Below are positions 865 to 24,910 of a stretch of 47,400 nt of DNA, piece by piece; positions within the stretch are counted from its first letter, which is position 1, and the number at the start of each line of letters is the position of its first letter. Both the position numbers and the translations under genes were made by a program. The notes beneath the pieces were generated by a model. That model ran no database searches, was not told where the DNA came from, and saw nothing but the letters and a program-made list of their open reading frames with translations. Source of the DNA: Methanomicrobiales archaeon (GTDB lineage Archaea; Halobacteriota; Methanomicrobia; Methanomicrobiales; JACTUA01); NCBI GenBank assembly GCA_030019205.1, contig JASEFH010000020.1, forward strand, positions 1 to 47,400, written 5' to 3'.

Positions 865-2466
865 TTGAAACCATACCGGCGTCTCTTTCCCACCTCACTA
901 TTGGCGGCAGCCATCGCCATGCTCATGCTGGCAACAGCGATCCCCGTGCACGGGAGTAGCGGAGATAATGCGGGTGCCCCGCTCCTCTCGCTCGTGCCGG
1001 GTGAAAACGCATGGATCTACAGCTCCCTCCGCGTCCTGGGAGTGAGCCTCCCGGATTTCTTTCGGCTCTTCGGCATCGACGACTCCGGAGGACCGAAGAT
1101 CGCGAGCAGACAGACCACGTTCGTCCACTGGCCCCCCCCGCCCAGGGCCCTCTACCCGGACGGCACCCCCACCCCTCCTCACGTCGTCGCTCCTCTCGAG
1201 CAGGACATTCCCGTAGCCATCACTTCCATCGAAACGGTCTATCCTCCCTTCCCGATTCTCCGACACCTCCAGGCCGTAAAGGTGACCTGCACCAACCGGG
1301 GAGACGCCGATATCGAGGCGAATGTACTCCTGACGATCAACGGGAGGGATGCCAGCTACATACCCGTCCGCCTTTCCCCGGGAGGGAGTGTGGAAGCGAT
1401 CTTCGTCATCCTCTTCGATGCGCCGAACGGCGACGTGATCTCTGCCCTTATCGTCGATAAAGACGCGATCGAGATTTTCGGAGCCGAGCTCAATCCCACC
1501 GGCAGCCCGATCGGCGGCGGCGAGGGATACGCGGACATCATCGCCCGTGACGATCCCCGGGTCCGCGCCGTGGTTTCCGACAGGGAGGGGCTGCTGCAGG
1601 CCCTCTCCCAGGCGAAGAGCGGGGATGTGGTATACATCGAGGAGAACGCCGCTATCGATCTTACGGGGCTGGAGAGCGGCATCGGCATTCCCGAGGGGGT
1701 GACACTCGCCAGCAATCGCGGGGAGAAGGGCTCCCCCGGCGGACGGATCTTCTACACCTCGAGCGACGGCGACGATCCGAACTTTATATTCAGTGCCCTT
1801 CATGCCGAAGGGAGGGACGTGCGCATAACAGGCCTGCGTCTGGAGGGCCCGTTCAAGGAGACGCGGAGGTACAATCTCGCGATCGGGATTCACTCCACCT
1901 GGCCCGGCCTGGAAGTCGACAACTGCGAGATCTTCGGATGGAGCTATGCGGGTATCGCCCTGCAGAAGACCGGACCGGAGAACGGCGGCTACTTCCACCA
2001 CAACCACATCCACCACTGCCGCACGAACGGCTATGGCTACGGCATTCTCATCGGGGATCAGGCATTCGCGCAGATCGAGGCGAACGCTTTCGATTACACG
2101 CGGCACTGCATATCGGGCTCCGGTATGGCCGGAGACGGTTACGAGGCGCGCTACAACATGATCTCGGATACGCAGACCAGCGCCGCCTTCGACATGCACG
2201 GGGATCCCAGAGGCTCCGGAACAGCCGGCGCCTACATCCACATACACCACAACACCTTCCTCACGAGGACCTCCTACGCGATCGCCATACGCGGCGTCCC
2301 GTCCGAAGGGGCGCGGATCCACAACAACTGGTTCTCCACGCCCAATCCCGTCGGACAGAAGGACACGTTCGGCAACATCGTCATGCAGAACAATATCTTC
2401 GGGCAGGAACGGACCCTCGTAAACGAGGGGCCCGTACAGCAGTATACGTCGCGGCTCCTCGACTGA
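865..2466 (+). CDS. exported right-handed beta-helix protein
   Basis: 533-residue protein. The start is TTG at 865, chosen because GGGGAGG lies a few bases upstream and the product then begins with a classic signal peptide (KPYRR, then a hydrophobic stretch of about 20 residues ending near VHGSS). Residues about 110-200 resemble a CARDB/Ig-like adhesive module (valine-rich, with NRGDADIEANV). Residues about 230-510 look like a pectate-lyase-type parallel beta-helix: periodic asparagine/histidine turns such as VDNCEIFG, HHNHIHHCR, IHHNTF and IHNNWF. Such proteins bind, cleave or epimerise polysaccharides outside the cell. It precedes the glycan genes on the same strand, so a role in the same surface polymer is plausible but inferred. 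No sorting motif is seen at the C-terminus. Substrate unknown. Confidence 0.8.
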   Translation: MKPYRRLFPTSLLAAAIAMLMLATAIPVHGSSGDNAGAPLLSLVPGENAWIYSSLRVLGVSLPDFFRLFGIDDSGGPKIASRQTTFVHWPPPPRALYPDGTPTPPHVVAPLEQDIPVAITSIETVYPPFPILRHLQAVKVTCTNRGDADIEANVLLTINGRDASYIPVRLSPGGSVEAIFVILFDAPNGDVISALIVDKDAIEIFGAELNPTGSPIGGGEGYADIIARDDPRVRAVVSDREGLLQALSQAKSGDVVYIEENAAIDLTGLESGIGIPEGVTLASNRGEKGSPGGRIFYTSSDGDDPNFIFSALHAEGRDVRITGLRLEGPFKETRRYNLAIGIHSTWPGLEVDNCEIFGWSYAGIALQKTGPENGGYFHHNHIHHCRTNGYGYGILIGDQAFAQIEANAFDYTRHCISGSGMAGDGYEARYNMISDTQTSAAFDMHGDPRGSGTAGAYIHIHHNTFLTRTSYAIAIRGVPSEGARIHNNWFSTPNPVGQKDTFGNIVMQNNIFGQERTLVNEGPVQQYTSRLLD

Positions 2467-2686: not shown

Positions 2687-3730
2687 GTGCACTCGATGAC
2701 CGATAGAGAGATCCTGCGGGAGACGCTCGGGCGCGACGGGGAGCTCTGGGACGTGTTCACGAGCCGAGAGGAGTACGACCCGCTTCGACAGGAGGCAAAG
2801 GGGAGGTTCACCGCGAAGTGCAGCCAGCGGAAGAATCTGCAGCATCCCGTCGTATCGGCCTTTCTCGTGCGGGAGGGGCTCGATATAGAGTACCCCGAAG
2901 ATCACCCGTTCGCCATCTGCCTCACGCACGACGTCGATGACATCCACCCCACGCTGCTCCACCGCCTCTCGCACGCAGTGAACTCCATGCGAGGGCGGGA
3001 TCTCGAAAATCGCTTCGTTCCCTGCGTTTACCGGAACTTTCGGGAGATCATGCGGCTGGAGCAGGAGTACGGGGCAACATCCTCGTTCTTCTTCCTCGCC
3101 GCAGACCGCGACTTCCGCCGGTTCCGGTACCGTCTCGAGGATCTCGAGGCGGACATCGGCTGTATCTGTGACCAGAACCACGAGGTGGGTCTCCACGGGG
3201 GCTGCGGCACGTATTGCGACCACGCGGCCATGACCCTGGAGAAGGCGAGGTTGGAGAGAGTGGTGAACCACGAGATCATCGGTTACAGGAGTCACTATCT
3301 CCAGTTCCGGGTGCCGCAGACCTGGCTCCTCCTGCATGAGAGCGGCTTCAAGTACGACAGCACGTTCGGGTATCCGGACGCGATGGGGTTCCGCAACGGC
3401 ATGTGCCATCCCTACTGGCCGTTCGACCTAAAAAGCGGGCGATACATCGACGTGCTGGAGATCCCGCTCGGCATCATGGACGTGCACCTTCCGGCCGGAG
3501 GTTCAGCAGAGGCCTGGAGTGCGGTTGCGGGGATGGTGGATGTGGTGGCCGCGTGCCGCGGGATCCTGACGCTCAACTTCCACAACGACACCTTCAGCAA
3601 CGCGGGGAAACGGGGGCGATCGAGAGTGTTCAGAAAGATACTGGATCTCGGCAGGCAGAATAATGCCTGGATGACGAGCGGAGAGGAGATCTACCGCTGG
3701 TGGGTGCGCCATGGGTATCGAGCCGATTGA
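2687..3730 (+). CDS. polysaccharide deacetylase-like protein (CE4/NodB superfamily)
   Basis: Protein of about 347 residues. GTG at 2687 is preferred because GGGGGA sits 6 nt upstream; in-frame ATGs at 2636 and 2696 are alternatives (2636 has no visible ribosome binding site). CE4 features: LTHDVDD near residue 82 (metal/catalytic Asp), FFFLA near 140, EVGLHGG near 165, GYRSHYL near 200 and LNFHNDTF near 290. The second metal histidine of the usual H-x3-H is not at its standard spacing, so this is a divergent subfamily and activity is uncertain. It would remove N-acetyl groups from a hexosamine polymer. The 3' end overlaps the FemAB-like gene by 20 bases, implying coupled translation. The same deacetylase-then-FemAB order recurs at 12326-14271. 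Confidence 0.8.
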   Translation: MHSMTDREILRETLGRDGELWDVFTSREEYDPLRQEAKGRFTAKCSQRKNLQHPVVSAFLVREGLDIEYPEDHPFAICLTHDVDDIHPTLLHRLSHAVNSMRGRDLENRFVPCVYRNFREIMRLEQEYGATSSFFFLAADRDFRRFRYRLEDLEADIGCICDQNHEVGLHGGCGTYCDHAAMTLEKARLERVVNHEIIGYRSHYLQFRVPQTWLLLHESGFKYDSTFGYPDAMGFRNGMCHPYWPFDLKSGRYIDVLEIPLGIMDVHLPAGGSAEAWSAVAGMVDVVAACRGILTLNFHNDTFSNAGKRGRSRVFRKILDLGRQNNAWMTSGEEIYRWWVRHGYRAD

Positions 3731-4691
3731 CGACAAGGCACGATGGGACTCGTTTGTGCAGAAGAGCCCTTATGGACAGCTCTTTCATCACTGGGACTTT
3801 TTGAAGATCGTCGAACGGCATACCGGCTTCCGGTTCATGCCGTATGCCATCACGAAGGGAGAGCAGATCGTCGGTATCCTCCCCCTCTTCTACAGGAACA
3901 CGATGGGGGTGAGGAGCGTGATGTCCCCGCCGCCCAAGACCGGTATCCCGTACCTGGGTCTACTGCTGGATGCCACGTACGCGGACCTGAAGCAGTACAA
4001 ACGCGAGCACATCCTGCGCATCATCGCGGAGGATCTCAGGGCCGAGATGGACGCTTATGCTCCCAACCTCCTGTCCATCTCCAGCCCGCCCTCCCTGTTG
4101 GACATCCGCAGTTTCGTATGGAGCGGCTTCTCCGTCGAACCGCTCTATACGTACGTCTTCGATCTCCGGCAGGGCCAGGAGAGACTCTGGAAGGGGTTCT
4201 CCGTGAGGAGGCGGCAGCAGATTCGGGATGCAGAGAAGAAAGGGCTGGAGATTGCCGTGAGCGATGACGTCTCCCGCCTGTACGGCATGGTCTCGGAGAG
4301 GTACAGCGAGCAGGGGCTCTCGAGCCCGTTCCGTAGCGTGGACTACCTGCGGGACGTCTGCAGCGCATTTCCGGACAACCTGAAGACATTCAGCGTCCTG
4401 GATGAGGGGCAGGTGACAAGTGCCGTCCTCGTCGTCCAGTACCGGGACGTCAAGCTCTGGGTCGGAGGGGCCCGCTCCGACAACAACAGCAACGAGTTCC
4501 TGATCTGGGAGGTGATCAAGGAGGCGCAGAGGCAGGGGTATGAATCCTGCGAGTTCATCGGGGCGAACACCCAGAATCTCTGCCAGTTCAAGAGCCAGTT
4601 CAACCCATCCCTGGAGCTGTACTTCCGCATCAGCAGCAAGGACATCCGGGGAAAGCTGGCCGAAACGGCCTACATGAAGATAATCCGCTGA
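3711..4691 (+). CDS. FemAB/GNAT-fold acyltransferase
   Basis: 326-residue protein with the layout of the FemAB-like/BioF2-like acetyltransferase group: an N-terminal half with YGQLFHHWDFLKIVE and an IVGILPLFY strand, and a second GNAT-like half with SVRRRQQIRDAEKKG, VLVVQYRDVKLWVGG, NEFLIWEVIKEAQRQGYESCEFIGAN and a final substrate-loop segment FKSQFNPSLELYF. Family members move aminoacyl or acyl groups from CoA or tRNA to cell-surface sugars or peptides. No peptidoglycan exists in this lineage, so the target is probably an amino sugar in an archaeal surface glycan, perhaps one exposed by the overlapping deacetylase. The start at 3711 lies inside the previous gene. Confidence 0.75.
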   Translation: MGIEPIDDKARWDSFVQKSPYGQLFHHWDFLKIVERHTGFRFMPYAITKGEQIVGILPLFYRNTMGVRSVMSPPPKTGIPYLGLLLDATYADLKQYKREHILRIIAEDLRAEMDAYAPNLLSISSPPSLLDIRSFVWSGFSVEPLYTYVFDLRQGQERLWKGFSVRRRQQIRDAEKKGLEIAVSDDVSRLYGMVSERYSEQGLSSPFRSVDYLRDVCSAFPDNLKTFSVLDEGQVTSAVLVVQYRDVKLWVGGARSDNNSNEFLIWEVIKEAQRQGYESCEFIGANTQNLCQFKSQFNPSLELYFRISSKDIRGKLAETAYMKIIR

Positions 4692-4804
4692 TCGTCGTAC
4701 TGCCGCACGGGTGCGTGGCGCCGGAGAGGGGGCCCTGAATGGGGCGGGGATACCGGCTGGTTTTGAAAAAAGACTCCCATGGATACGCCGATTTTCCGAA
4801 CGGG

Positions 4805-4820
4805 CAAAAATTATATATAG
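4805..4820 (+). promoter_or_regulatory. TATA box before the aminotransferase
   Basis: AAAAATTATATATAGA is a strong archaeal TATA-type element, the most AT-rich segment in this 200-nt gap. Transcription would begin near 4838 and give a short leader before the ATG at 4871. Confidence 0.65.
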
Positions 4821-4870
4821 ATTGCGCGGACACATAGCGGACTGCCTGAGAACGTTTGCGAGAATAGATT

Positions 4871-6259
4871 ATGTTGCCGCGATCAAGACCCCATATCGAT
4901 CTGGACACCTTGGTGGACGCCATCTGCTCTGCGGACCTCTCGCACGAGGGGCATACGCAGGCCTTCGAGGATGCATTCGCCCGGTATCTCGGGGCGTACC
5001 GCTGTATCGCCATGCACCAGGCGCGATCCGGGCTGTATCTCTCCCTGAAGGCATTGAAGGTGCAGAAGGGGGACGAAGTGATCGTCCAGAGCTTCACCTA
5101 CCGGGGGGTGATGAATGCCATCATGGAAGCGGGGGCGACTCCCGTTCTCGTCGACAGCTCGATCCGGGATCTCCTCGCATCCCCCGAAGCGATAGGGGAC
5201 GCCATCACGGATCGGACGAAGGCGATCGTTGCCACGCACCTCTTCGGCATTCCGGCTGACATCGAGGAGATCGTGGCGATCGCCCGCGAGCGGGGAATCC
5301 CCGTTCTGGAGGACTGCGCCCAGTGCCTGGGGGCGAGGTGCGGGGGGAGGATGATCGGGACGTTCGGGGATGCGGCTTTCGTCAGCTTCAACTTCGAGAA
5401 GCACATGTCGACCGGTGAAGGGGGAATGCTGATCCTGAATAACCGCGGTCTCGCCCCCGCGATCGAGGCGGTCGCCGCCGGTTACGAGAGAGTTCCTCTG
5501 CTGCGGGAGAAGCACCATGTCTACGGGCTTATCCTCCTCTACCTGGCGACCCGGAGCGACCTTTACAGGACCCGCCTCACCGCCTATTTCGGGCAGGATC
5601 TCATGCGCGCGGACAGGCGGCTCTTTGCCCTGGTGGACGGGATGCTGCAGGGGGGCACGACGGGTGCGGAGCTGGAGGAGGCGATCCTCGGCTACCTGCG
5701 CAGGAACCGGGTGATCGAGAAGGCGATCCGCCGCAGTCGCCCGCCGTTCAGTACGATCGATGCCTTGCGGAATCTGCTCGCCTCGGACCGGCTGCGGATC
5801 GACGACGGCTATCTCCGCATGAACGCGCTCCGGGCGCTCGTCGGGAGCCTCAACCTTCAGCATCTCGACCGCGTGAACCGGATCCGGAACGAGAATGCGC
5901 AGGTGTATGCCGACGAGCTGGACGGAGGCTCCGCTTCCTACGTGCTCCCGATCGTCGGGGGGAGGAGATCGGCGGCGTTCCTGAAGTACAACGTCCTCAA
6001 TACCGCAGGCGTTCCCCTTCCGCAGATTACGGCGCGGGCGCTGAAAGAGGGTCTGGAGCTGGGCAACTTCCAGTGGCACTGCCCGGTCCACCGGGTGCCT
6101 CTACTCGGGCGGAGGATTCCCCACGACCGGGAGAAGCTCAGGAACAGCGAGTACATCTCCGCGAATATCATCAACCTCCCCGTCCATCCCTCGGTCGGGG
6201 AGGAGGATATCTCCAGAGTCGTTCAGTTCCTGAAAAGTGTCCCGCGGTCGGCGGGCTGA
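4871..6259 (+). CDS. DegT/DnrJ/EryC1-family PLP aminotransferase
   Basis: 462 residues; makes amino sugars (typically 3- or 4-amino-deoxyhexoses on NDP-sugars) by transamination. The family signature is clear: HQARSGLYLSLKAL near residue 50 (phosphate binding), PVLVDSS near 92, VATHLFGIPADIEEI near 120, EDCAQCLGA with the pyridine-N aspartate at about D148, and SFNFEKHMSTGEGG with the Schiff-base lysine at about K177. It is longer than typical members (about 370-400): residues about 215-300 carry an extra helical insertion. It has its own TATA box and no obvious ribosome binding site. Placed among glycosyltransferases and deacetylases, it probably supplies an amino-sugar donor for the surface glycan; exact sugar unknown. 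Confidence 0.85.
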   Translation: MLPRSRPHIDLDTLVDAICSADLSHEGHTQAFEDAFARYLGAYRCIAMHQARSGLYLSLKALKVQKGDEVIVQSFTYRGVMNAIMEAGATPVLVDSSIRDLLASPEAIGDAITDRTKAIVATHLFGIPADIEEIVAIARERGIPVLEDCAQCLGARCGGRMIGTFGDAAFVSFNFEKHMSTGEGGMLILNNRGLAPAIEAVAAGYERVPLLREKHHVYGLILLYLATRSDLYRTRLTAYFGQDLMRADRRLFALVDGMLQGGTTGAELEEAILGYLRRNRVIEKAIRRSRPPFSTIDALRNLLASDRLRIDDGYLRMNALRALVGSLNLQHLDRVNRIRNENAQVYADELDGGSASYVLPIVGGRRSAAFLKYNVLNTAGVPLPQITARALKEGLELGNFQWHCPVHRVPLLGRRIPHDREKLRNSEYISANIINLPVHPSVGEEDISRVVQFLKSVPRSAG

Positions 6260-7288
6260 ACGGGATCGGCCGTATCTCATGCCATGCATCAACGATTTTC
6301 ACTCACCCGGAACCCTGTCCGCAGCCCTGCCCTCATCGGGGCAGTCCGGTGCGTGGGAAGGCGGATTCCCCGCTCTATCGAGGCAGAGCGGTGCGAATCC
6401 GCTTTGCCAGTATGCGGAGAGATCCCGCGGCGGATCCGATCCGCGCTCGAATCAGTCCAGATTCCTGCATGGGGAAGCCGGGACAAATCCTGTCGGATCC
6501 CAGGAGCGGTTCTGGGGGATGAGTGCCCGGGCGCGATAGCGCTGCACCCGGGACGGATCAGTGCCGGCACCGTGCATAACCGATCCGTTCCTGTCGCACG
6601 CTTGGTGGTTGGGGGAGGGAGGCGCCCCGTGCTGTCCCCCGCAGTTGGAATATCCTGCGGGAGATCCAGGGCCGATCCCGACTGCTCATTGCGGGTTTCG
6701 GGGAGGAGGAGACGGGAGGGGCGGGGTCTCCCCCGGTCCATCCCTGCGATGCCGCGGCAGGGGCGTTCGAGATCTCCACGGGCATTCCGGAGAGCGGGGC
6801 GGGAATCGGACGGGTGAACACGACTCGCCATCCGAACCGAGCCCTGCCGCAGTAGCGGGAGAGAGGGGTTGTGCATCCTCCCTCCCCCATCCCCGCCGTG
6901 CGATCGTTGCCGCCACGAAGCCGTGGATCCGGTTCGATCGGAGTGTTTTCAGGAGGGGATCCGATGCCGTGCGCAGGTGCAGCGGTCGCAGGGCGGATCT
7001 CCCCGGTTCCCCCCTCCAAGACTGCCGCACAGAGGAGAAGGAAATGGCACTCTCTCTCCGCGCGAGCCCGCCTCATGCAGTGCGACAGCGGGCAGAGCGG
7101 AGGGATCGCTGGTATCGGCACGGCCCGCAAAGAGGATGATGCGCGGAATCCGTTACGCAGCATCCCGCGATCCTGTCGATCCGCCACCATCGCACGCTGG
7201 AGGATGGAACGCACCCCCGCGGGAGTGATGGCTGGCGAGAAAGCCCACCAACCTCCCGCAGGTCGGAAGATACCCCCATAAGCCCCCT
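6260..7288. other. gene-free spacer between convergent glycan genes
   Basis: About 1 kb between the 3' ends of the aminotransferase (+) and the GT4 gene (-). Open frames exist on both strands, but they have random composition, no domains and no ribosome binding sites. Small palindromes such as GGCGGATCCGATCCGC (near 6430) occur. I see no RNA gene, promoter or mobile element. Confidence 0.5.
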
Positions 7289-8572
7289 TCACGAGAGGCA
7301 CTTTCTGTAGATAGTTGCTGTTTTCCTGGCGATACTCTTCCAGGTGAACTGCCGGGCGTACTGCAGGATCTCCTCCGTATTCCACCTCTTATCCAGCGCT
7401 TTCAGGATTACGGCGGCCATCTGCTCGGAATTTTTGGGCTCCATCAGCATGCCGTGGTCCTCCGACTGGATCACCTCGGGGATTCCGCCCACGGCCGATC
7501 CGATGAACGGTTTGCCGCAGCCCATCGTCTCGAACAGCACCATCGGGTTACCCTCCGAGAGGCTGGGCAGGACGAAGAGGTCGCATGCGTTCATCCAGAT
7601 CGGGATACGGTGGTGCGGCTGCCGCCCGGCGAGGAATACGTGATCCTCCAGGCGCTTCTCCTGGATGAGCGCCCGCAGATGATCCCGCAGGAGTCCGTCA
7701 CCCACGATGACGCACAGCACATCGCTCCGCTCCCGCACTACCCTCTCCATCGCCTCGATCAGGTAGGCATGCCCTTTCACCTCGACCAGATTGCCGGCCG
7801 TGAAGACGATCTTTTTATCCTGCGGCAGATCGAGCATCCTGCGGCACTTCACCGGATCCATGGGGTAGAACTTGGATTCGCTGAAACCGTTCGGGATGAC
7901 CGCAACGGGGGTGTCCACGTCCAGATGCTCGATGCAGCCGAGATTGCGGCGGCTGACCGTGATGATGTAGTCGGCCGCATTCAGGACCCGGGTGATACTC
8001 TCCCTCCAGGCGTCGTCCTGGAACGGCAGCTCGTAGATGTCGAATCCATGGGCCGTCAGCACCAGGGGAACGCCGTAGTCCTCCTTCAGCCGCAACCCCG
8101 TATACCCCTGCGGCCAGGTGAAGTGCGCATGCATCAGGTCGAACCGGATCCCATCGGACTGAACTTGCCTCTTCACCCGCCGATAGTGCTTCTCCCCGAG
8201 CTTCCGGAAATAGTCGCAGACAGGGATATAGTGGACTCCGACAGGGTGCAGATGGACGTTATCGGGTTTGCCCGACGGATCGATGAGGCGATCCTTCTGG
8301 AACCGGTCCAGGTGGTTCTTTATGGGGGACAGGGGGATGTACTTCGATAGATCCGACAACGGATTGTAGCGGATGTAGATATGGTACTGGTCGACATAGA
8401 GCGCGATCTCGTTTATCAGATCCTTCCAGGATATGGCATACGCGTTGTTCAGCCCCAGCAGGGTACAATCGTGCAGGAACGCCTCCAGTCCGTTGTCCGA
8501 CGGTATGCGGTCTGTTCTGCCGATATTCGGGAAGGCTTCCTCCGCACGCCCCGCGGACTCACTCGTAGCCAT
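7289..8572 (-). CDS. GT4-family glycosyltransferase
   Basis: 427-residue GT-B glycosyltransferase. The start at 8572 is chosen because GGGGGTG lies about 8 nt upstream and it overlaps the preceding GT2 gene by 14 bases; upstream in-frame codons encode low-complexity Ser/Arg-rich sequence. N-terminal domain: FDLMHAHFTWPQGYTG. C-terminal donor domain: VIPNGFSESKFYP, FTAGNLVEVKGHAYLIEAM, CVIVGDG, VFLAGRQPHHRIPIWM and the E-x7-E region LPSLSEGNPMVLFETMGCGKPFI. Retaining transferases of this type add hexoses from NDP-sugars on the cytoplasmic face of the membrane. The first ~100 residues are longer than usual before the first Rossmann strand. Acceptor unknown; context is surface glycan synthesis. 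Confidence 0.87.
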   Translation of the reverse strand: MATSESAGRAEEAFPNIGRTDRIPSDNGLEAFLHDCTLLGLNNAYAISWKDLINEIALYVDQYHIYIRYNPLSDLSKYIPLSPIKNHLDRFQKDRLIDPSGKPDNVHLHPVGVHYIPVCDYFRKLGEKHYRRVKRQVQSDGIRFDLMHAHFTWPQGYTGLRLKEDYGVPLVLTAHGFDIYELPFQDDAWRESITRVLNAADYIITVSRRNLGCIEHLDVDTPVAVIPNGFSESKFYPMDPVKCRRMLDLPQDKKIVFTAGNLVEVKGHAYLIEAMERVVRERSDVLCVIVGDGLLRDHLRALIQEKRLEDHVFLAGRQPHHRIPIWMNACDLFVLPSLSEGNPMVLFETMGCGKPFIGSAVGGIPEVIQSEDHGMLMEPKNSEQMAAVILKALDKRWNTEEILQYARQFTWKSIARKTATIYRKCLS

Positions 8573-9587
8573 CGTCGGCACCCCCGTGGCGGGATGCGGT
8601 CGACCTCCGCATCGAATGCACGCGCTCCCGCGGATTGATCGTACTCTCCCATCGTGACTTCTGCTGGTTGTCCAGCAGGATCGCAAGGAAGAGGAACTGA
8701 AGCCCGATAAAGAAGCCGATGAGCGCCAGTCCACCGCTGATGACGAAATCGCCGTTTCGGGCGAACGTCTGATACAGCGCATAGACCGCTCCGCCCGCAC
8801 CGCCGAGGGTGAGGACGATGCCGGAGGCGTAGACGAACGGGATCGAGTAGAGGCCGCGAGATGCATACTTGGTCTTCATGCGCCAGAGGAAATCGGATGC
8901 CAGAAGGCGGGAGACTCGAACGATGTAGCTTCCATACCGGATCTTCGACTTCTCCCGCCCGTAGCGCGCCGGGTGCACCACATCCATGACACGAAAGTCG
9001 TGGGCGTTCAGTTTCACGAGGATGTCGTTGCAGTAGCCGTAGCCCGTGTACAGCGAATCCAGGTCCAGGGTGCGTAGCGCCTTCCAGGATATCGCGGTAT
9101 AGCCGTTCTGCGGATCCATGATGTCCCAGTATCCGGATGCCACTTTGGTGAGGAAGGTGAGCACGGAGTTGCCGAAGGAGCGCCATGCCGACATTCCTTT
9201 CCTGTACTCGGCGCTGAACAGCCTGTTTCCCTTGGTGTAATCGGCCTTCCGCCAGACGATCGGATCGAACAGATGGGGCAGGAATCTGGGATCCATCTGG
9301 TTGTCGCCTGCCATCACCGCCACGATGTCCATGTTCTCCTGAAGAGCCTTCTTGTAGCCGGTGTAGATGGCGGAGCCCACGCCGCCGTTCCTCCGGTGCT
9401 GAACGCACACGATACGGGGATCTTCCGAAGCACACTTCTGCACGATTTCAGCCGTCCGATCTGTAGAACCATCATCGACGACGTAGATCCGGTCCACATA
9501 CTCCGGTATGGAACGCAGTGTGTCTTCGATCAGCAGCTCCTCGTTGTAGGCCGGAACCGCGACGGCGACCCTATGCTTTGCGTACGT
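8559..9587 (-). CDS. GT2-family glycosyltransferase with C-terminal membrane segments, apparent ACG start
   Basis: Inverting GT-A transferase of about 342 residues, dolichyl-phosphate-mannose-synthase-like. VYVVDDGSTD, MAGDNQMDP (DxD-type metal site) and NGYTAISWKALR are visible, followed by two or three hydrophobic helices near residues 245-310. The canonical first strand, VAVAVPAYNEE, is encoded upstream of the first possible GTG (9497), so translation must begin earlier. That upstream frame is open back to a TAG but contains no ATG, GTG or TTG. A perfect ribosome binding site (9594-9602) points 6 nt away to an ACG at 9585-9587. Either ACG is the start or a start codon has been mutated or misread. 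The gene likely pairs with the overlapping GT4 gene in assembling a lipid-linked glycan. Confidence 0.8.
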   Translation of the reverse strand, partial: TYAKHRVAVAVPAYNEELLIEDTLRSIPEYVDRIYVVDDGSTDRTAEIVQKCASEDPRIVCVQHRRNGGVGSAIYTGYKKALQENMDIVAVMAGDNQMDPRFLPHLFDPIVWRKADYTKGNRLFSAEYRKGMSAWRSFGNSVLTFLTKVASGYWDIMDPQNGYTAISWKALRTLDLDSLYTGYGYCNDILVKLNAHDFRVMDVVHPARYGREKSKIRYGSYIVRVSRLLASDFLWRMKTKYASRGLYSIPFVYASGIVLTLGGAGGAVYALYQTFARNGDFVISGGLALIGFFIGLQFLFLAILLDNQQKSRWESTINPRERVHSMRRSTASRHGGADDGYE

Positions 9588-9593
9588 GCTTCT

Positions 9594-9602
9594 CCCTCCT
9601 CC
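9594..9602 (-). promoter_or_regulatory. strong Shine-Dalgarno before a non-canonical start
   Basis: On the minus strand this reads GGAGGAGGG, one of the strongest ribosome binding sites in the window. It is followed after 6 nt by ACG, and no ATG/GTG/TTG occurs in the GT2 frame within reach. It decides the start of the GT2 glycosyltransferase. Confidence 0.65.
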
Positions 9603-9987
9603 TGTGATACAATCTGCCCGGAAGTTCGTTGCGTTGGTTACCTATCCAGAACATCCTGCTGCCTGCACGCCCACCGGCATTGTATCCAGACAGCGATCGG
9701 GGAATAGACGACGGGCGAATATTTATTCTTTTCCTGCACGGCAGCGGAGCAGGCTCTGGCTGACCGCGCCGCCAGCATGCAAAATCAGGGATCCTCCGGC
9801 TGGGGCAAGATCGCAGGAAGGGATGCCATGCCGTCCTGGATGCCGGACTGTCGCCTGCAATTCTCAACTTTCTAAAACTCTGCTATCAGCTTTTATTTCT
9901 TGAAAAGACGGGATATTGATGCTGCCTTCCTCGGCTGACGGGACCTTCGATACTCTTATTAGTTCCCAGCACGAAGTAGATCTGCAC
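9603..9987. other. intergenic region with divergent promoters
   Basis: No gene is seen. On the minus strand AATAAATATT (9717-9728) is a TATA-like element for the GT2/GT4 pair. On the plus strand TACTCTTATTAG (9951-9962) lies about 30 nt before tRNA-Gly and fits its promoter. Confidence 0.5.
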
Positions 9988-10059
9988 GCGCCGATAGTGT
10001 AGTGGTTATCACTAGGCGTTGCCAACGCCTAAACCCGGGTTCGAATCCCGGTCGGCGCA
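9988..10059 (+). tRNA. tRNA-Gly (anticodon GCC)
   Basis: 72-nt cloverleaf: acceptor GCGCCGA pairs with TCGGCGC, the anticodon stem AGGCG/CGCCT closes loop TTGCCAA with anticodon GCC, and the T arm is CCGGG-TTCGAAT-CCCGG. The discriminator is A and CCA is not encoded, normal for archaea. No intron is seen. A T-rich stretch (TCTCTTTTCC) just downstream may terminate transcription. Confidence 0.97.
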
Positions 10060-10230
10060 TGAATCTCTTTTCCCACGGTATGCCCGTGACCATCATCGCA
10101 TCCGTGAGAGCGGACAAACGAGCGTCTCTCCGCCGGACCGGTGCCGTTGTCGGATACACCGGTCAGCTGCTTCCCCGCGTCGCGGGGATGCAGGAAATGT
10201 TTTTACCCAGTGCGGAGGAGGTGTAGGCGG

Positions 10231-10884
10231 ATGGAACTCGACCTGCACGTGCATTCATGCTACTCGTACGACTCTCTCCTGCGGCCAGAAACGATCCTGA
10301 GAAGGGCGAAAGCGATGGGTCTCACCGGGGTTGCGATCACGGATCACGGCACCATTCAGGGTGCACTGCGGGCGCACAGGGTAAATCGGGACGAGGAATT
10401 CACCGTGATCGTCGGCTGCGAGATCCTGACGGATATCGGCGATATCCTGGGGCTCTTTCTGCACGACGAGATCCGCTCTACCTCCTTTCCCGAAGTGATC
10501 GACGAGATCCGCTCGCAGGACGGCCTTGTCGTCCTGCCTCACCCGTTCAGGGGTCATACTCTGTCGGACGTTGTGATCCGGTCAATCGATGCCGTCGAGG
10601 TGTTCAATGCCCGGGCATCGGAGACGCAGAACGTTCAGTCGCAGGAGATGGCAAGGCGATACAGTCTGCCCGCATCCGCCGGAAGCGATGCCCATACCGC
10701 CGCCGAGATAGGTCTGGGGCGGATTGTCCTGCACGACGACCCGGATATCCGAAAGGCTCTTATGGATGGAAAGGGATGGGGGACGGGGAGTCGATCGCCT
10801 CGGTATGCGCATTATGCGAGCAGGTTGATAAAGGCGGTAAAATTGCGGCGACTCCCGGTGTCACAAGCAGCGGGTACCGTATGA
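10231..10884 (+). CDS. PHP-domain phosphoesterase
   Basis: 217 residues. The start at 10231 follows GGAGGAGGTG by a good distance; the in-frame upstream extension is arginine/cysteine-rich and non-coding in character. Metal-binding motifs of the polymerase/histidinol-phosphatase fold are in order: LHVHSCYSYDS (residues 4-14), AITDHGT (about 35), IVGCEI (about 65), LPHPFRG (about 107) and GSDAHT (about 152). PHP proteins hydrolyse phosphomonoesters with a trinuclear metal centre. The stop overlaps the start of the next gene (ATGA), so PHP and the ATP-grasp ligase are translationally coupled and probably act in one pathway. Substrate not inferable. Confidence 0.87.
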   Translation: MELDLHVHSCYSYDSLLRPETILRRAKAMGLTGVAITDHGTIQGALRAHRVNRDEEFTVIVGCEILTDIGDILGLFLHDEIRSTSFPEVIDEIRSQDGLVVLPHPFRGHTLSDVVIRSIDAVEVFNARASETQNVQSQEMARRYSLPASAGSDAHTAAEIGLGRIVLHDDPDIRKALMDGKGWGTGSRSPRYAHYASRLIKAVKLRRLPVSQAAGTV

Positions 10885-12020
10885 ATGCTATCGTCTGCGA
10901 TGCAAACCTGAGAACTGCCCTTTACGCCATACGCTCTCTGGGAAGGAGAAACATCGACGTGACGGCGGTCGAGGAGCACAGCCGCTCCGTGATCCCGATC
11001 GGATTCCGGTCCGTATACTGCAAAAAGCGTTTGTGGAGTCCGAGGGTCAGCAGCGAAGAGGATTATATCGCATTCCTGCTGGATCTGGCGGATGCACACG
11101 ACGCGATCCTGCCCGCCGGCATCAGTTCGATGGTGAGCATCGCGAAACATCTGGATCTGTTCGATCGGCGTACCAGAATCCCGATTCCACCCTACAATAA
11201 GCTGATGATCGCGATCGACAAAGAACAGACGTTTCGGTTTGCACTGGACAATGACATCCCCTGCCCGGCAACCTATTTTCCCGCGGACAGCGCGGACATC
11301 GTTCGGATCTCCAGAGAGATCGAGTATCCTGCGGTGATCAAGGTCAGAAGAGGATCGACGGCGCGGGGCGTGGAGTATGCCGCATCCCCGCAGGAGCTGA
11401 TCGACAGATACGAGCGTCTAGCTGGGATCCAAGAGCGGCCCATCATCCAGGAGTATATCCGTGGCCAGGGATACGGCGCGTTTGCGATCTACAATCGGGA
11501 CAGCAAACCCCGTGCGGTCTTCGTGCACAGGAGGCTGCGCGAGTATCCCATCAGCGGCGGACCCTGCACGTACTGCGAAAGCGTGGAGAATGGTGAGATA
11601 TTGCAGTACGGGTTGAAGTTGCTGGATGCCCTGAAATGGTACGGCATTGCGATGGTCGAGTTCAAACTCGATCAGAAAGATGGCGTGCCGAAGCTGATCG
11701 AGGTCAATCCGCGCTTCTGGGGTTCAATGTCGCTGGCGATCCATGCGGGTGTGGACTTCCCGTATCTCCTCTACCGACTGGCCGTCGACGGGGATATCGA
11801 GCCCGCCGGAGAGTATGCAGCCGGCATCAGGACCCGGTTTGTCCTCCAGGATATCATCGCCTGCATGCACTACTTCAGGAAAACCCGCGATGTACGGTAT
11901 CTGAAAGAGATAGTCGGACCATTCTTCGATAGGGACGTGAAATTCGGCATATTTTCGGCAGACGATCCCATGCCTGCGTTCCACTACGGAGTTCAGGGGT
12001 TGAGCAGGTACCTCCGATAA
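10881..12020 (+). CDS. ATP-grasp carboxylate-amine/thiol ligase family protein
   Basis: 379 residues, beginning in an ATGA overlap with the PHP gene. Layout is N-terminal preATP domain (NAIVCDANLRTALYAIRSLG; ILPAGISSMVSIAKH), ATP-grasp domain (YPAVIKVRRGSTARGVEYA, PIIQEYIRGQGYGAFAI) and metal/phosphate residues in VEFKLDQ...LIEVNPRFWGS. It resembles carbamoyl-phosphate-synthase-large-chain-like ligases seen in surface polysaccharide loci. It probably activates a carboxylate by acyl phosphate and joins it to an amine, for example decorating an amino sugar, which would fit the neighbouring aminotransferase and deacetylases. That role is inference. Confidence 0.83.
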   Translation: MNAIVCDANLRTALYAIRSLGRRNIDVTAVEEHSRSVIPIGFRSVYCKKRLWSPRVSSEEDYIAFLLDLADAHDAILPAGISSMVSIAKHLDLFDRRTRIPIPPYNKLMIAIDKEQTFRFALDNDIPCPATYFPADSADIVRISREIEYPAVIKVRRGSTARGVEYAASPQELIDRYERLAGIQERPIIQEYIRGQGYGAFAIYNRDSKPRAVFVHRRLREYPISGGPCTYCESVENGEILQYGLKLLDALKWYGIAMVEFKLDQKDGVPKLIEVNPRFWGSMSLAIHAGVDFPYLLYRLAVDGDIEPAGEYAAGIRTRFVLQDIIACMHYFRKTRDVRYLKEIVGPFFDRDVKFGIFSADDPMPAFHYGVQGLSRYLR

Positions 12021-12267
12021 CGCACGGCAGGTCCTGCAGGCGGAGATGGAAACTGAGAACGCTCCCCCGGTACCGTCCCGGAAGTCGGGAGATCGCTGGG
12101 CGGCTGCCAGGACGGCGTCCCGGCCTGTCCGGATACCGGATTGAAGGAGATTCCATGAATTTAAAAATTTCTCCGATACCTTCTCTTTCCAACCTCAGCG
12201 CAATCCTTAAAGCCCGACAATGCACACCCCGAGCCCGAAACCGACCGGAAGACAGCCGCACCGGGAA

Positions 12268-12281
12268 AACAATTTTATAGG
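12268..12281 (+). promoter_or_regulatory. TATA box in the 305-nt gap before the second deacetylase
   Basis: AACAATTTTATAGG lies about 50 nt before the ATG at 12326. A second AT-rich block (GAATTTAAAAATTTC, near 12157-12171) lies further upstream. No gene is seen in 12021-12325. Confidence 0.5.
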
Positions 12282-12325
12282 AATACAGAAAATCAGAGTC
12301 CAGACATGGCAGACCAGGCGATCGC

Positions 12326-13252
12326 ATGAGCACAGGATTCAACGGAAATTCGCTTGCCGTAACCGTCGATATCGAAGACTGGTACCACATTCCGTCGGTG
12401 ACCGGTTCGCCTTTCTCTCAGTTCCGGGACGCATCGGAGTTCTATCAGAAGTGGAACGGACGATACGACTACCTCACCGATTCGGTCCGGAAGGTGCTGG
12501 GAATCCTCGATACCTGCAACGTCACTGCCACCTTCTTCGTTGTGGCCGACGTCGTGCGCCACTATCCGGGCCTGATCGAATGCATCTGCGAACAGGGGCA
12601 CGAGATTGCCGTGCACGGACTCTCGCATGCCTGCAAGATCGATCCGCAGACGAAGTCGCCCCTGATGAGCGCGGCGGAGTTCGAGGCGAGGACAAAAGAC
12701 GCCAAACATCTCATCGAGACGGCGATCGGGGAGCAGGTATACGGTTACCGCGCTCCCAACGCCCTCGTGAGCGGCTGGATGGTCGATTCCCTCGAGAAAC
12801 TGGGGTTCCGGTACGACGCATCGGTATCAGTCAACTCCCTCTACAACAAGACCGACTCCCGCCTGATCGGGGTCACGTCCTGCCCCTACACACCCCGTCC
12901 CCATTCCCTGGACCGGGGGGGAGACAGAGATTTCATCGAGTTTCCGTTTGCCTACTGGGATGTGGGGGGCGTGAAGATACCTGCGTCGGGGGGGCCCGTA
13001 CTCCGCTTTCTCGGGAGCCGGATGATCCTGGAAGGGCTGCGGCAGAGCCTGAAGCGAGGGCATACCGTGTTTTACTTCCACCCGCTGGACATATCACGGG
13101 AGAAGTTTCCGAGAGTCGGCAGGGGCCGGCCGCTCTACTGGGCGATCAAGGGGGATCTCGTGGAGAGGCGCCTCATGCAGATTCTGAGAGGCACCAACGG
13201 CGTGAAGAAGAAGCCCCTGTTCGAGCTGTGCGGGGAAGCCGTATGCGAGTAG
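12326..13252 (+). CDS. polysaccharide deacetylase resembling XrtA/exosortase-associated CE4 enzymes
   Basis: 308 residues. CE4 motifs: TVDIEDWYH (D15 and D18), TATFFVVADVV, HEIAVHGLSH (metal H97 and H101), GYRAPN near 148, and HPLDI near 270. The N-terminal (I/V)D(I/V)EDW pattern and the C-terminal block FPFAYWDVGGVKIPASGG...VFYFHPLDI match, from memory, the DUF3473-containing deacetylases found with exosortase-A EPS clusters in bacteria. It overlaps the downstream FemAB-like gene by 10 bases, the same order as in those bacterial loci. Expected role: de-N-acetylation of a surface polysaccharide. No signal peptide is seen, so action on a lipid-linked precursor in the cytoplasm is possible. Confidence 0.85.
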   Translation: MSTGFNGNSLAVTVDIEDWYHIPSVTGSPFSQFRDASEFYQKWNGRYDYLTDSVRKVLGILDTCNVTATFFVVADVVRHYPGLIECICEQGHEIAVHGLSHACKIDPQTKSPLMSAAEFEARTKDAKHLIETAIGEQVYGYRAPNALVSGWMVDSLEKLGFRYDASVSVNSLYNKTDSRLIGVTSCPYTPRPHSLDRGGDRDFIEFPFAYWDVGGVKIPASGGPVLRFLGSRMILEGLRQSLKRGHTVFYFHPLDISREKFPRVGRGRPLYWAIKGDLVERRLMQILRGTNGVKKKPLFELCGEAVCE

Positions 13253-14271
13253 GGATACGCCCCCTCGAGCCGGGGCGGGAGGAGGAGTGGGAGCGGTTCG
13301 TCCGCTCCCATGAGGAGACGACGTTCTTCACGCAGATCGGCTGGAGAAATGTCGTGGAGGGGGTCTACCGCCACCAACCTCTCTACCTCTACGCGGAGGA
13401 CGGGAGCGGGGAGATGATCGGGATCCTCCCCCTCTTCCAGGTTCGATCGCCCTTCTCCGGCCCGAGACTGGTGTCGCTCCCATACGCCCCCTACGGTGGC
13501 ATATACTGCCGGAATGCAGCCGTATCCGACGCCTTCCTGGAAGAACTGAAGAGAATGGCCTCTCGGGGCATGTCGATCGAGCTGCGGCACGTCGGAGACG
13601 GCGCCCCGCCGGAGGGTTTCGGGAGCCGGAACGGCTACTGCACCTCCATCCTGGATCTCTCGCCCGGCCCGGATCGGATCCTCGGCGCGATGGACAAGAC
13701 ATGCCGCACCGCCATCCGGAAGGGGGAGAGAGCAGACTATGCCGCAAAGTTCTCGTCCGACTCCGCCGGCGTGGCCAGGTTCTACGACATCTACCTCGAG
13801 ACCATGCAGCGTCTGGGGACCCCGCCCCATCCGCCCGCACTCTTCTCCGCCCTCCTGCAGGAGTTCGGGGACGGGATCCTGATCGCGGAGGCGTGGAAGG
13901 GCGACACGCCCGTTGCCGCTCTCTTCCTCCTCGGCATGCGGAAGACCCTCGTCTCGGGATGGGCGGTGAGCCGCTGGGAGTACCGCACGTCCGCTCCGAA
14001 CAACTTCATCTACTGGCACGCAATCCAGGAGGCGATCGAGAGGGGATACCGCTCCTTCGATTTCGGGCGGAGCTTGCAGGGCTCCGGGATCCACGCCTTC
14101 AAGACGCGGTGGGGTGCCCGGGACGTGCCCCTCCGTCACTGGGTCTACCCGGCGGGCGCAGGTGGAGGGATGCCGCAGGCGGAGTATGGGCGTCTGGCAA
14201 AGGTCTGGAGCCGGGTTCCCCTGGTGGCCGCACGAATCCTGGGGCCGGAGCTGCGGCGATGGATCGTGTAA
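13243..14271 (+). CDS. FemAB-family acyltransferase (exosortase/EPS-associated type)
   Basis: 342 residues with start ATG 13243 inside the end of the deacetylase gene (GGGGAAG upstream). Double-GNAT FemAB architecture: EEEWERFVRSHEETTFFTQIGW, MIGILPLFQV, VSLPYAPYGGIYC, TCRTAIRKGE, then second-half motifs VAALFLLGMRKTLVSGWAVS, NNFIYWHAIQEAIERGYRSFDFGRS and FKTRWGARDVPL. The last three match the pattern of FemAB proteins linked to PEP-CTERM/exosortase systems. It would acylate or aminoacylate a deacetylated amino sugar. It is paralogous in position to 3711-4691 but clearly divergent in sequence, so the duplication is old. Confidence 0.82.
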   Translation: MRVGIRPLEPGREEEWERFVRSHEETTFFTQIGWRNVVEGVYRHQPLYLYAEDGSGEMIGILPLFQVRSPFSGPRLVSLPYAPYGGIYCRNAAVSDAFLEELKRMASRGMSIELRHVGDGAPPEGFGSRNGYCTSILDLSPGPDRILGAMDKTCRTAIRKGERADYAAKFSSDSAGVARFYDIYLETMQRLGTPPHPPALFSALLQEFGDGILIAEAWKGDTPVAALFLLGMRKTLVSGWAVSRWEYRTSAPNNFIYWHAIQEAIERGYRSFDFGRSLQGSGIHAFKTRWGARDVPLRHWVYPAGAGGGMPQAEYGRLAKVWSRVPLVAARILGPELRRWIV

Positions 14272-14323: not shown

Positions 14324-15409
14324 ATGAGGATCGCGCTGCAGGTGTACACGCCCGGCCAGGTGCATTTCATGAGAAACTTCATCCTCCAGATGCAGGCGCG
14401 GGGCCACGACCTGATCCTGACAGCGCTCAACAAGGACATCTCGCTGCACCTGCTGGATCGCTTCGGGATCTCCTACACGGATCTGGGCTTCTACGGCAAT
14501 ACACCGCTACAGAAGCTGCTCCATCTGCCGCTGATCGACCTGCGTCTCTATCGGGAGGTGAAGAGGTTCGATCCCGACATCTTATATGGGTTTGCGATGA
14601 TCGAAGGCGCCCATGTAGCGAGGGTGCTCCGAAAACCCTGCGTCCAGTTCACGGATACGGAACTGGCCCGTGAGCAGCAGCTCCTCTTCGTGCCCTTCAG
14701 CGATGCCGTCGTGACGCCCGCCTGCTTCCGCGGCGACTACGGAGATAAGCACATCCGCGTGGAGAGCTACAAGGAGCTCGCCTACCTGCACCCCCGCTAC
14801 TTCCGCCCCGATCCGGCCGTGCTGGAGATGGAAGGGCTGGAGAGGGGCGAACCGTTCTGCGTGGTGCGGTTCGTCTCCTGGACGGCGACGCACGATATCG
14901 GGCAGAGGGGGATCCGGGACAGGACGAAGCTGCTGGAGAGGCTCGAGCGGCAGGGGCGGGTCATCGTCACGTCGGAGACTCCACTTCCGAAGAGCCTGGG
15001 GAGGTTCCGCTCGAGATCGCCTCCGGAGCGGCTGCACGACCTCCTCGCCCATGCCGACCTCTACATCGGGGAAGGGGCGACGACTGCGACCGAGGCGGCG
15101 GTCCTCGGGACACCTGCCATCTACGTCTCCTCGGTGGCGGGAAACCTGGGCAACCACCAGGAGCTGGAGGAGCGGTACGGGCTGGTCTACCGCCACGTCT
15201 CCGAAGAGGCGGCACTGGATACGGCTCTCCGACTCCTGGAGCGGGAAGATCTCCGGCGGGAGTGTGCGGAGAAGCGGAGGAGGCTGCTCGCCGAGAAGAT
15301 CGATATCACGGCATTCATGGTCTGGTTCATCGAGAACTACCCCGAGTCCTTCGGGATCATGCGGGACCATCCCGGTCGCCAGTTTGCCGTCGCCCCCTGC
15401 ATGCGATGA
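14324..15409 (+). CDS. DUF354 family protein (GT-B-like fold)
   Basis: 361 residues; start ATG 14324 preceded by GAGGGGAA. Matches the archaeal DUF354/COG1817 group, which resembles UDP-GlcNAc 2-epimerase/MurG-type GT-B proteins: N-terminal VYTPGQVHFMRNFILQMQARGHD, ILYGFAMIEGAHVARVL, FTDTELAREQQLL; C-terminal donor-like part LLAHADLYIGEGATTATEAAVLGTPAIYVSS and GNHQELEERYGLVY. The exact reaction is not known for this family. It is the last gene of the glycan region and follows the FemAB-like gene by 52 nt, probably in the same transcript. Confidence 0.85.
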   Translation: MRIALQVYTPGQVHFMRNFILQMQARGHDLILTALNKDISLHLLDRFGISYTDLGFYGNTPLQKLLHLPLIDLRLYREVKRFDPDILYGFAMIEGAHVARVLRKPCVQFTDTELAREQQLLFVPFSDAVVTPACFRGDYGDKHIRVESYKELAYLHPRYFRPDPAVLEMEGLERGEPFCVVRFVSWTATHDIGQRGIRDRTKLLERLERQGRVIVTSETPLPKSLGRFRSRSPPERLHDLLAHADLYIGEGATTATEAAVLGTPAIYVSSVAGNLGNHQELEERYGLVYRHVSEEAALDTALRLLEREDLRRECAEKRRRLLAEKIDITAFMVWFIENYPESFGIMRDHPGRQFAVAPCMR

Positions 15410-17938: not shown

Positions 17939-18340
17939 CTATTCCACGACAAGATTCGCGGAGTAGCGGTCGGTGTCGGCGAGGAGGAAGATCTCGCTCA
18001 TCGCGAGGCCGCCCTTGGGGCAGATCTCGGTGCACTGCCCGCAGAAGACGCAAGAAGGTATGTAGATCCGGATCTGCTTGGTCTCCGGGACGAGCTCGAT
18101 CGCGTTGCCCGGACAGATCCGCACGCAGAGACCGCAGCCCGTGCACTCCTCGCCCACCTTCGCCAGCTTCCCGCGATACTGCGGCGGGACTTCCACCGGC
18201 GGGTGGATCGCCGCCTCCCCCCGGGACGCCTTCTGCAGGAACTGGGTCATCGACGGCGGCAGGTACTTCGCCGGGAACGGATTCGTGGCCGGCTTCCGGA
18301 AGAGCTGCCTCAGAAGCTCGGCGACCATCGGAAATCTCAC
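17939..18340 (-). CDS. mbhN: Mbh hydrogenase ferredoxin-like subunit (NuoI-like)
   Basis: 133 residues. GTG at 18340 is chosen because it overlaps the stop of mbhM as GTGA and follows GGGGGTG; an internal ATG at 18328 is possible. Two [4Fe-4S] motifs: CTGCGLCVRICP (C66, C69, C72, C76) and CVFCGQCTEICP (C97, C100, C103, C107). It passes electrons from ferredoxin to the proximal cluster in MbhJ on the cytoplasmic arm of the complex. Last gene of the 14-gene cluster. Confidence 0.92.
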   Translation of the reverse strand: MRFPMVAELLRQLFRKPATNPFPAKYLPPSMTQFLQKASRGEAAIHPPVEVPPQYRGKLAKVGEECTGCGLCVRICPGNAIELVPETKQIRIYIPSCVFCGQCTEICPKGGLAMSEIFLLADTDRYSANLVVE

Positions 18341-19341
18341 AGCAGCACCCCCGCATCCAGCACGATGAGGGCGAGACCCAGGATGCCGAGCCCGCCGAGG
18401 TAGGTCCAGTAAAACGAGACCACCTGGGTAATCCGCAGACGGGCTGCCGCCACCCGGATCAGACTGATGGAGACGAACATCACGGCAAAGAGCTTCGCGA
18501 GGAAGAAGAGGGTGTCCGCGATCCCGGCGGCGATGCCGCCGATACCGAGCACCGGCGCGATCGCATACGGGAAGAAGAGCGCCACCACCAGGGCGGAGAT
18601 GGCGATCGTCCTCACCCCGTGGGCGATCTGGAAGAGTGCGAGGTTCCGCCCGGAGTACTCGACGAGAAGCCCGCCCGCCAGCTCCGTCTCCGCCTCCGGG
18701 GTGTCGAAGGGGATGCGGGATACTTCGGCCGGCGTCACAAGCAGGAGCACCAGCAGGAGGATCGCAAAGCCGACGATGCCGAGCGGCCCGAGCACCCCCC
18801 AGAGGGGGTTGGCGGCGATCGTGGTGAGCGCAAACGGGAGCGCAACACCCGCAACGGCGAGCCGCCATGCGATCGCGATGACGATGATGGCGATGGGCAG
18901 CTCGTAGGCCATCATCGTCACCATCTCCCTCTGCGCCCCTACCGTCGCGTAGGGGGAGCCGGAAGCGAACCCGCCTGCGACCATCGCGAGCGCCGGCACC
19001 GTGAGCAGGTACATGACGAGGACCAGATCCCCGCTCCCCCCGAGCAGCGGAGGAAAGCCCCCGATGGGCAGGTAGAACAGAATCGCGATCCCCCCGGCGA
19101 GGGCGATCAGCGGGGCCATGTTGAAGAGGAGCGGTATGGAGTCCCCCGGCACGATGCTCTCCTTCGTGAGCAGTTTCGCCACGTCCGTGAAGGGCTGGGT
19201 GACGGGCGGGCCGATGCGGGCCTGCATGTGGGCGGTGATCTTTCGGTCGATCCCAAGGTAGAGGAGCCCGACGACGATGGCAAAGACCGTGACGGCGAGG
19301 ATGCCCCCCACGGTCAGCACGATCTCGGTCACGAGCGGCAT
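18337..19341 (-). CDS. mbhM: Mbh hydrogenase membrane anchor subunit (NuoH-like)
   Basis: 334 residues, about eight hydrophobic helices. Family motifs: DRKITAHMQARIGP near residue 30, QPFTDVAKLLTKE, and RIPFDTPEAETELAGGLLVEYSG near 205-228, the acidic loop that contacts the hydrogenase module. It anchors the peripheral arm and links redox chemistry to ion movement. The start overlaps mbhL by 13 bases. Confidence 0.93.
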   Translation of the reverse strand: MPLVTEIVLTVGGILAVTVFAIVVGLLYLGIDRKITAHMQARIGPPVTQPFTDVAKLLTKESIVPGDSIPLLFNMAPLIALAGGIAILFYLPIGGFPPLLGGSGDLVLVMYLLTVPALAMVAGGFASGSPYATVGAQREMVTMMAYELPIAIIVIAIAWRLAVAGVALPFALTTIAANPLWGVLGPLGIVGFAILLLVLLLVTPAEVSRIPFDTPEAETELAGGLLVEYSGRNLALFQIAHGVRTIAISALVVALFFPYAIAPVLGIGGIAAGIADTLFFLAKLFAVMFVSISLIRVAAARLRITQVVSFYWTYLGGLGILGLALIVLDAGVLL

Positions 19342-24662: not shown

Positions 24663-24910
24663 GGACTCCCCTCCTCCCGACCGACGGTGCGGATGGTGAC
24701 GATGAAGATTGCGGTGGTGAGGCCGGCCCCGATCGAGGCCTGAGCGATCGCAACGTCCGGCGCCTGAAGGATGTAGAACTCGACCGACACCAGGAAGCTG
24801 AAGAGACCCGCCGCGATGGCGGCGGCCAGAAGGTCCCGGAACCAGTAGATCAGGAGCGCAGAGACGGCGAGTCCGATAAGCACCAGAAGGTGCAGGACGG
24901 TCTCGATCAT
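24659..24910 (-). CDS. mbhD: Mbh hydrogenase subunit D (DUF4040 type)
   Basis: 83 residues, about three hydrophobic helices. LLAAAIAAGLFSFLVSVEFYILQAPDVAIAQASIGAGLTTAIFI carries the family APDVA motif, which corresponds to a segment of MrpA. Its small size matches MbhD. Begins in an ATGA overlap with mbhC. Confidence 0.88.
   Translation of the reverse strand: MIETVLHLLVLIGLAVSALLIYWFRDLLAAAIAAGLFSFLVSVEFYILQAPDVAIAQASIGAGLTTAIFIVTIRTVGREEGSP

Follow-up and report, generated by a model that had tools for sequence, protein, structure and literature searches.

Two overlapping deacetylase–FemAB gene pairs in a Methanomicrobiales glycan locus: a possible route to an amino-acid-substituted amino sugar

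Introduction

What would a Methanomicrobiales archaeon make with two overlapping gene pairs, each encoding a CE4-type deacetylase and a FemAB-type transferase, in a single glycan locus? The pairs lie on contig JASEFH010000020.1 (C20; genomes, contigs and the stretches read in them carry the prefixes G, C and L below) of assembly GCA_030019205.1, a 2.73-Mb genome that is 99.6% complete. The window analysed is this entire contig of 47,400 nucleotides (nt), and the locus is therefore truncated on its left side. Pair 1 consists of DEAC1 (2696..3730) and FEM1 (3711..4691), which overlap by 20 nt, and pair 2 of DEAC2 (12326..13252) and FEM2 (13243..14271), which overlap by 10 nt; all four genes are on the forward strand. 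A first-pass annotation, made from the sequence alone, had placed two such pairs in a glycan locus of an archaeal lineage. Both were found present and intact, and the set of relatives, which holds Methanolinea UBA277 and a same-family "Methanomicrobiales archaeon", agreed with that lineage. On balance, we favour the reading that the product of the locus is an amino sugar that carries an amino acid and is destined for a glycan of the cell surface.

Results and Discussion

Predicted Chemistry and Candidate Sugar

The structural model of FEM2 (predicted local distance difference test score, pLDDT, 93) showed a double GNAT fold with FemX of Weissella as the closest structure (1xe4, 5.5e-19), and was also close to Sbb17/Sba18, aminoacyl-tRNA-dependent synthases crystallised with streptothrisamine. 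K287 of FEM2 aligned with Lys305 of FemX, which is the catalytic residue of that enzyme (PMC12945691). The FemX-like Orf11 of BD-12 uses Gly-tRNA to glycylate streptothrisamine on its amino sugar (PMC12945691). These enzymes thus share with FEM2 the fold and the position of the catalytic lysine, and Orf11 acts on an amino sugar, although identity is 17–18% and a peptidoglycan or streptothricin substrate is not expected here. In the pathway proposed for Porphyromonas gingivalis, VimE deacetylates a sugar, VimA attaches Ser or Gly to it, and the product joins type IX cargo to lipopolysaccharide; with VimA of Tannerella forsythia in Porphyromonas, the amino acid of this linker is Gly instead of Ser (PMC7468200). 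The authors of that work noted the resemblance of VimA to TIGR03019 and speculated about a similar compound for exosortases (PMC7468200).

Since FEM2 is closest to the aminoacyl-tRNA-dependent FemX and the catalytic lysine is kept, de-N-acetylation followed by aminoacylation of an amino sugar is likely. The earlier suggestion that the pairs deacetylate and then acylate an amino sugar fits the folds of both enzyme types, and can be refined: what is transferred is probably an amino acid, with aminoacyl-tRNA as its donor. A sequence scan of the four pair proteins showed neither transmembrane nor signal segments, in keeping with a donor of this kind in the cytoplasm.

The same fold bears on another explanation, in which the FemAB enzymes are GNATs that depend on acetyl- or acyl-CoA. 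They would put an acyl group back on the sugar, and the products would be N-acyl variants of an exopolysaccharide or N-glycan, free of any amino acid. The Pfam domain name Acetyltransf_6 would suit such enzymes, as would the acyl-carrier- and AMP-ligase-like genes recognised by eye in some DEAC2 loci (L164, L167). We consider this unlikely: in both fold and sequence the closest proteins are aminoacyl-tRNA users, the catalytic lysine is retained, and to remove an acetyl group and then add it again would be futile.

If the product is an aminoacyl sugar, its synthesis would start from an amino sugar with an N-acetyl group. This is probably either a diacetamido-uronic sugar, the predicted product of Wbp-like genes elsewhere in the genome, or a hexosamine that the GT2 enzyme of the locus would attach to dolichyl phosphate. 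A cytoplasmic CE4 enzyme, DEAC1 or DEAC2, would take off one N-acetyl group, the overlapping FemAB enzyme would move an amino acid from aminoacyl-tRNA onto the freed amine, and the GT4 and DUF354 glycosyltransferases would incorporate the product into a glycan that is assembled on a lipid and then exported. A diacetamido-uronic sugar is a plausible substrate because a Wbp-like gene set is present in the same genome: WbpD-, WbpE-, WbpB- and WbpA-like genes are contiguous on contig C14 (L139), with an AglB-like gene, recognised by eye, near them. The WbpA-like protein scored over the cut-off of TIGR03026 and the WbpB-like protein 152 bits against a cut-off of 450, and the WbpE- and WbpD-like genes were assigned by homology to loci only.

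Relationship of Pair 2 to XrtA-Type Genes

All the motifs named for pair 2 by the first-pass annotation are present (VDIEDW at 12365, PASGG at 12980, FYFHPLDI at 13070, FDFGRS at 14056 and FKTRWGA at 14098), and the profile matches by which its XrtA proposal could be checked were significant. DEAC2 matched TIGR03006 with 117.8 bits (E 4.7e-34; curated cut-off 276.2, not reached), and its PF01522 (Polysacc_deac_1, 55.7 bits) and PF11959 (DUF3473, 41.4 bits, E 1.7e-10) domains were over the Pfam cut-offs. FEM2 matched TIGR03019 with 242 bits (E = 8.6e-72; curated cut-off 260.35, not reached); nine control FemABs from Nitrospirota scored 373–444 bits on this profile. Relatives of DEAC2 with about 30% identity are found near the FemAB gene in L091, L118, L119, L120 and L121.

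In a FemAB tree from which long rows had been removed, FEM2 and the corresponding G199 protein fell into a clade with all nine above-cut-off bacterial FemABs and Methanolliviera (support 100/100), and the other methanogen FemABs formed a separate clade. Grouping of FEM2 with the latter was rejected (approximately unbiased test, p-AU 2e-6; p 0.025 and 0.0008 in earlier trees). From this placement FEM2 descends from the XrtA type of FemAB, although the curated families do not include it. The relationship of pair 2 to the XrtA type therefore stands by profile, gene order and tree, whereas strict XrtA membership does not, because both proteins score below the curated cut-offs and the genome is without an EpsH-type exosortase.

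As in XrtA/PEP-CTERM loci, which hold a TIGR03006 deacetylase, a TIGR03019 FemAB, a TIGR03108 amidotransferase and an exosortase, the deacetylase gene of pair 2 directly precedes the FemAB gene and its product carries DUF3473; TIGR03108-like amidotransferases also occur in the related loci of G199 (284 bits) and G185 (408 bits; cut-off 817). Pair 2 differs in being archaeal and in its neighbours, which encode PHP, ATP-grasp, DUF354 and AglJ-like GT2 proteins.

Of the two pair-2 proteins DEAC2 is the more conserved, being found at 57–63% identity in ten other genomes from five archaeal families. Six of the stretches read (L161, L163, L165, L166, L167, L169) have a GT2 gene immediately next to it, and ATP-grasp, PHP and DUF354 genes often share its stretch. 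The adjacent pair was met elsewhere in G199 only, a genome of a second family, where DEAC2 lies directly before a FemAB gene (255 bits); the remaining DEAC2 loci mostly have another type of FemAB, or none within the stretch. DEAC2 thus recurs in the glycan loci of relatives, and the adjacent pair in one genome. Ahead of the other archaeal FemAB type there is usually a member of a third deacetylase-like family, DEAC3 (L050:15421-16188, L086:9276-9992, L089:9204-10010, L162:9272-10027, L168:3824-4591); the L162 copy gave no Pfam match and the L050 copy no NCBIfam match.

The clustering of FEM2 with bacterial XrtA FemABs, in a genome without an exosortase, would also be expected if pair 2 were the remnant of a laterally gained bacterial XrtA exopolysaccharide locus that has lost its exosortase and now has no defined product. 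The intact reading frames and catalytic motifs, the conservation of DEAC2 across five families and the occurrence of the pair in a second family make such a remnant very improbable.

Pair 1 and Its Resemblance to VimE and VimA

By its profile matches, pair 1 is VimE/VimA-like rather than XrtA-like. DEAC1, for which homologues favour the ATG start at 2696 over the in-frame GTG at 2687 used in the first-pass annotation and the ATG at 2636, matched VimE (NF053580) with 70.2 bits (E 1.3e-19), far under the cut-off of 440, and gave no Pfam match. Its AlphaFold model is a CE4 fold, with 3s6o (3.1e-10), 3rxz and ArnD (8t0j) among the Foldseek matches. FEM1 is a distant relative of TIGR03019 (83 bits, E = 1.5e-23) with Acetyltransf_6 and FemAB domains over cut-off, and its profile matched FemX at 1e-8.

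Pair 1 thus resembles the Wbp/Vim linking-sugar pathway of Porphyromonas and Tannerella, since VimE is the best match of DEAC1, FEM1 like VimA is a TIGR03019 relative, and the same genome has candidate WbpA/B/D/E-like genes; it differs in the low VimE score and in having no type IX secretion or PorU context. A likeness to the ArnC/ArnD modification of lipid-linked sugars is given by a GT2 gene, whose product has a C-terminal membrane segment, beside a CE4-fold enzyme in several relatives, although the profile scores are weak (36 and 16 bits).

Several observations weigh against an aminoacyl-sugar product. The confidence of the DEAC1 model is moderate only (pLDDT 70), and in the classical CE4 HxxxH motif the second His is not conserved in DEAC1. 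Multi-copy FEM1 arrays occur without DEAC1, in the stretch examined, in many genomes. DEAC2 is not strictly dependent on FEM2, as most DEAC2 genomes carry another type of FemAB nearby, or none. Both pairs score below equivalog cut-offs, so their specificity may differ.

Among the FEM1 arrays, those of G038, G043 and G110 (L143, L144, L147) comprise 2–3 tandem genes near AMP-ligase-like and CapA-like genes (by eye), with neither DEAC1 nor an archaeosortase within the 20-kb stretch. Outside the window, the genome studied here has a second full FEM1-type gene on contig C17 (L053:9754-10770) and a divergent FemAB-like fragment on contig C31 (L054:969-1553).

An Unnamed EpsH-Like Archaeosortase in Relatives

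In some of 61 relatives a second, divergent archaeosortase is encoded beside FemAB genes. It scored 86.5 bits on the Pfam model Exosortase_EpsH, over the cut-off of 25.7, but remained below the cut-offs of ArtC (47.6 bits against 100), of the exosortase profile TIGR02602 (51.3 against 105.6) and of all named exosortase subfamilies, and corresponds to no named subfamily in NCBIfam 20. A profile built for it found the protein in 12 of the 232 genomes of the class and not in the genome that contains the window. FEM1-family genes were present in 11 of these 12 genomes, as compared with 57 of the 220 others (Fisher p 7e-6, uncorrected for relatedness).

Seven genomes have the archaeosortase gene and a FemAB gene of the pair-1 type less than 6 kb apart: G041, G051, G056, G016, G036, G133 and G121 (respectively L044, L045, L046, L039-L040, L042-L043, L077 and L081). 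Four others have it on contigs under 6 kb; the twelfth, G084, has it on a 41-kb contig for which no FEM1 gene was listed. Where the loci are fuller, they contain PIG-L, DUF354, ATP-grasp, hexapeptide acyltransferase and flippase genes and a long VimE-like deacetylase gene overlapping or abutting the FemAB gene. Several also encode a small protein with PEFP, then a hydrophobic stretch and basic residues at the end, which is a candidate substrate; PEFP tails were found too beside the archaeosortase of G084 (L079) and beside FEM1 genes in G026 (L146). We found no paper on FemAB genes with an archaeosortase, or with an exosortase and a polysaccharide deacetylase, in a search that left subscription literature mostly outside. 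In relatives with the EpsH-like archaeosortase by pair-1-type genes, the product is probably the amine acceptor for C-terminal protein anchoring.

The DEAC1 and FEM1 trees split alike, into the archaeosortase loci on one side and the window with archaeosortase-less relatives (families f1 and f4) on the other. Pair 1 of the window as an archaeosortase-linked type was ruled out, both trees placing it on the other branch. The sorting link is for this reason strong for the relatives and weak for the window, whose pair 1 may have a sorting role only as something we infer.

In the genome that contains the window, a search with PF09721 gave no exosortase match, but this model is insensitive to ArtA; since it also missed Haloferax ArtA, TIGR04178 was used for the archaeosortase search. 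The single match was ArtA (TIGR04125, 286 bits), encoded on contig C22; the search for its substrates covered PGF-CTERM tails and gave two proteins over cut-off. An archaeosortase with candidate targets, which the first-pass annotation had in mind, is thus present, but it is ArtA on another contig, with no EpsH-type exosortase.

These data bear on the explanation that in this organism too the pairs make an archaeosortase acceptor, the aminoacyl sugar lipid resolving the acyl-enzyme of the sortase in the way that the Ser/Gly linker sugar acts with PorU. The seven genomes described above with their PEFP-tailed proteins, the association of TIGR03019 with exosortase systems (PMC7468200), and the ArtA and PGF-CTERM proteins of the genome itself all lend it some weight. 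It is nevertheless improbable, as the EpsH-like archaeosortase is missing from this genome, DEAC1 and FEM1 fall on the branch that lacks it, and ArtA is encoded elsewhere, the proposed acceptor of Haloferax ArtA being archaetidylethanolamine (PMC7157517). With only ArtA present, it is more likely an N-glycan or exopolysaccharide that the aminoacyl-sugar chemistry modifies here.

Other Features of the Locus

The glycan genes claimed to lie between the two pairs were confirmed. A DegT/DnrJ-type sugar aminotransferase (4871..6259, forward strand; PF01041, 245 bits) is followed on the reverse strand by the GT4 glycosyltransferase (7289..8500; PF00534, 138.7 bits) and the GT2 enzyme of the polyprenyl-phosphate-sugar type (8559..9581; PF00535, 84 bits), both of uncertain start. 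The GT2 protein has a hydrophobic C-terminal segment at residues 278–306, and its best NCBIfam match was AglJ (62 bits, below cut-off). Then come, on the forward strand, a PHP-domain metallohydrolase (10231..10884; PF02811 and PF13263 over cut-off) and an ATP-grasp enzyme (10881..12020; PF15632 and PF02655 over cut-off), which has homologues in the archaeosortase loci L044-L046. A tRNA-Gly (GCC) at 9988-10059, between the GT2 and PHP genes, was considered as a linked glycyl donor from its position only and taken as a coincidence.

Downstream of pair 2 lies the gene of a DUF354 protein, GT-B/epimerase-like (14324..15409, forward strand; PF04007, 53.4 bits, over cut-off); DUF354 genes adjoin FemAB in most related loci. 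Upstream of pair 1, a right-handed beta-helix protein of uncertain N-terminus is encoded on the forward strand (919..2466; Pfam Beta_helix 24.1 bits, just below the cut-off of 25.9). Its homologue in L165 (9e-86) sits beside GT2-DEAC2-PHP-ATP-grasp in G020, so that such a protein flanks this gene group in two families (window 919-2466; L165:319-2331). Because the L165 copy has a further match, to a disaggregatase-related Pfam model, it may act on the surface polymer. The same hydrogenase/Mrp-type operon, recognised by eye, stands beside the glycan locus in both G016 (L040:10539-18370), where the archaeosortase is present, and the window (17939-26041), where it is absent.

Conclusions

The attachment target of exosortase and archaeosortase substrates is largely unknown, and the Vim work suggested an aminoacyl sugar acceptor. 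The most novel point of this analysis lies in the relatives, where an unnamed EpsH-like archaeosortase travels with VimE/FemAB-type genes; such pairs, in archaea without peptidoglycan or type IX secretion, give independent support for an aminoacyl-sugar acceptor and a test system for it. Tentatively, and with clearly less confidence than the amino-acid-substituted sugar itself, Methanomicrobiales may have their own equivalent of the Wbp/Vim-sortase and XrtA systems, in which an aminoacyl amino-sugar lipid, made by VimE-like deacetylases and FemAB transferases, would offer its free amine as the acceptor for the EpsH-like archaeosortase acting on PEFP-tailed proteins, and the window would represent the same chemistry separated from the archaeosortase. 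If this were true, aminoacyl sugars would serve generally as acceptors in anchoring of the exosortase type, in two domains of life. The same chemistry in the window, without such a sortase, suggests that aminoacyl sugars may be more widespread in the surface glycans of archaea.

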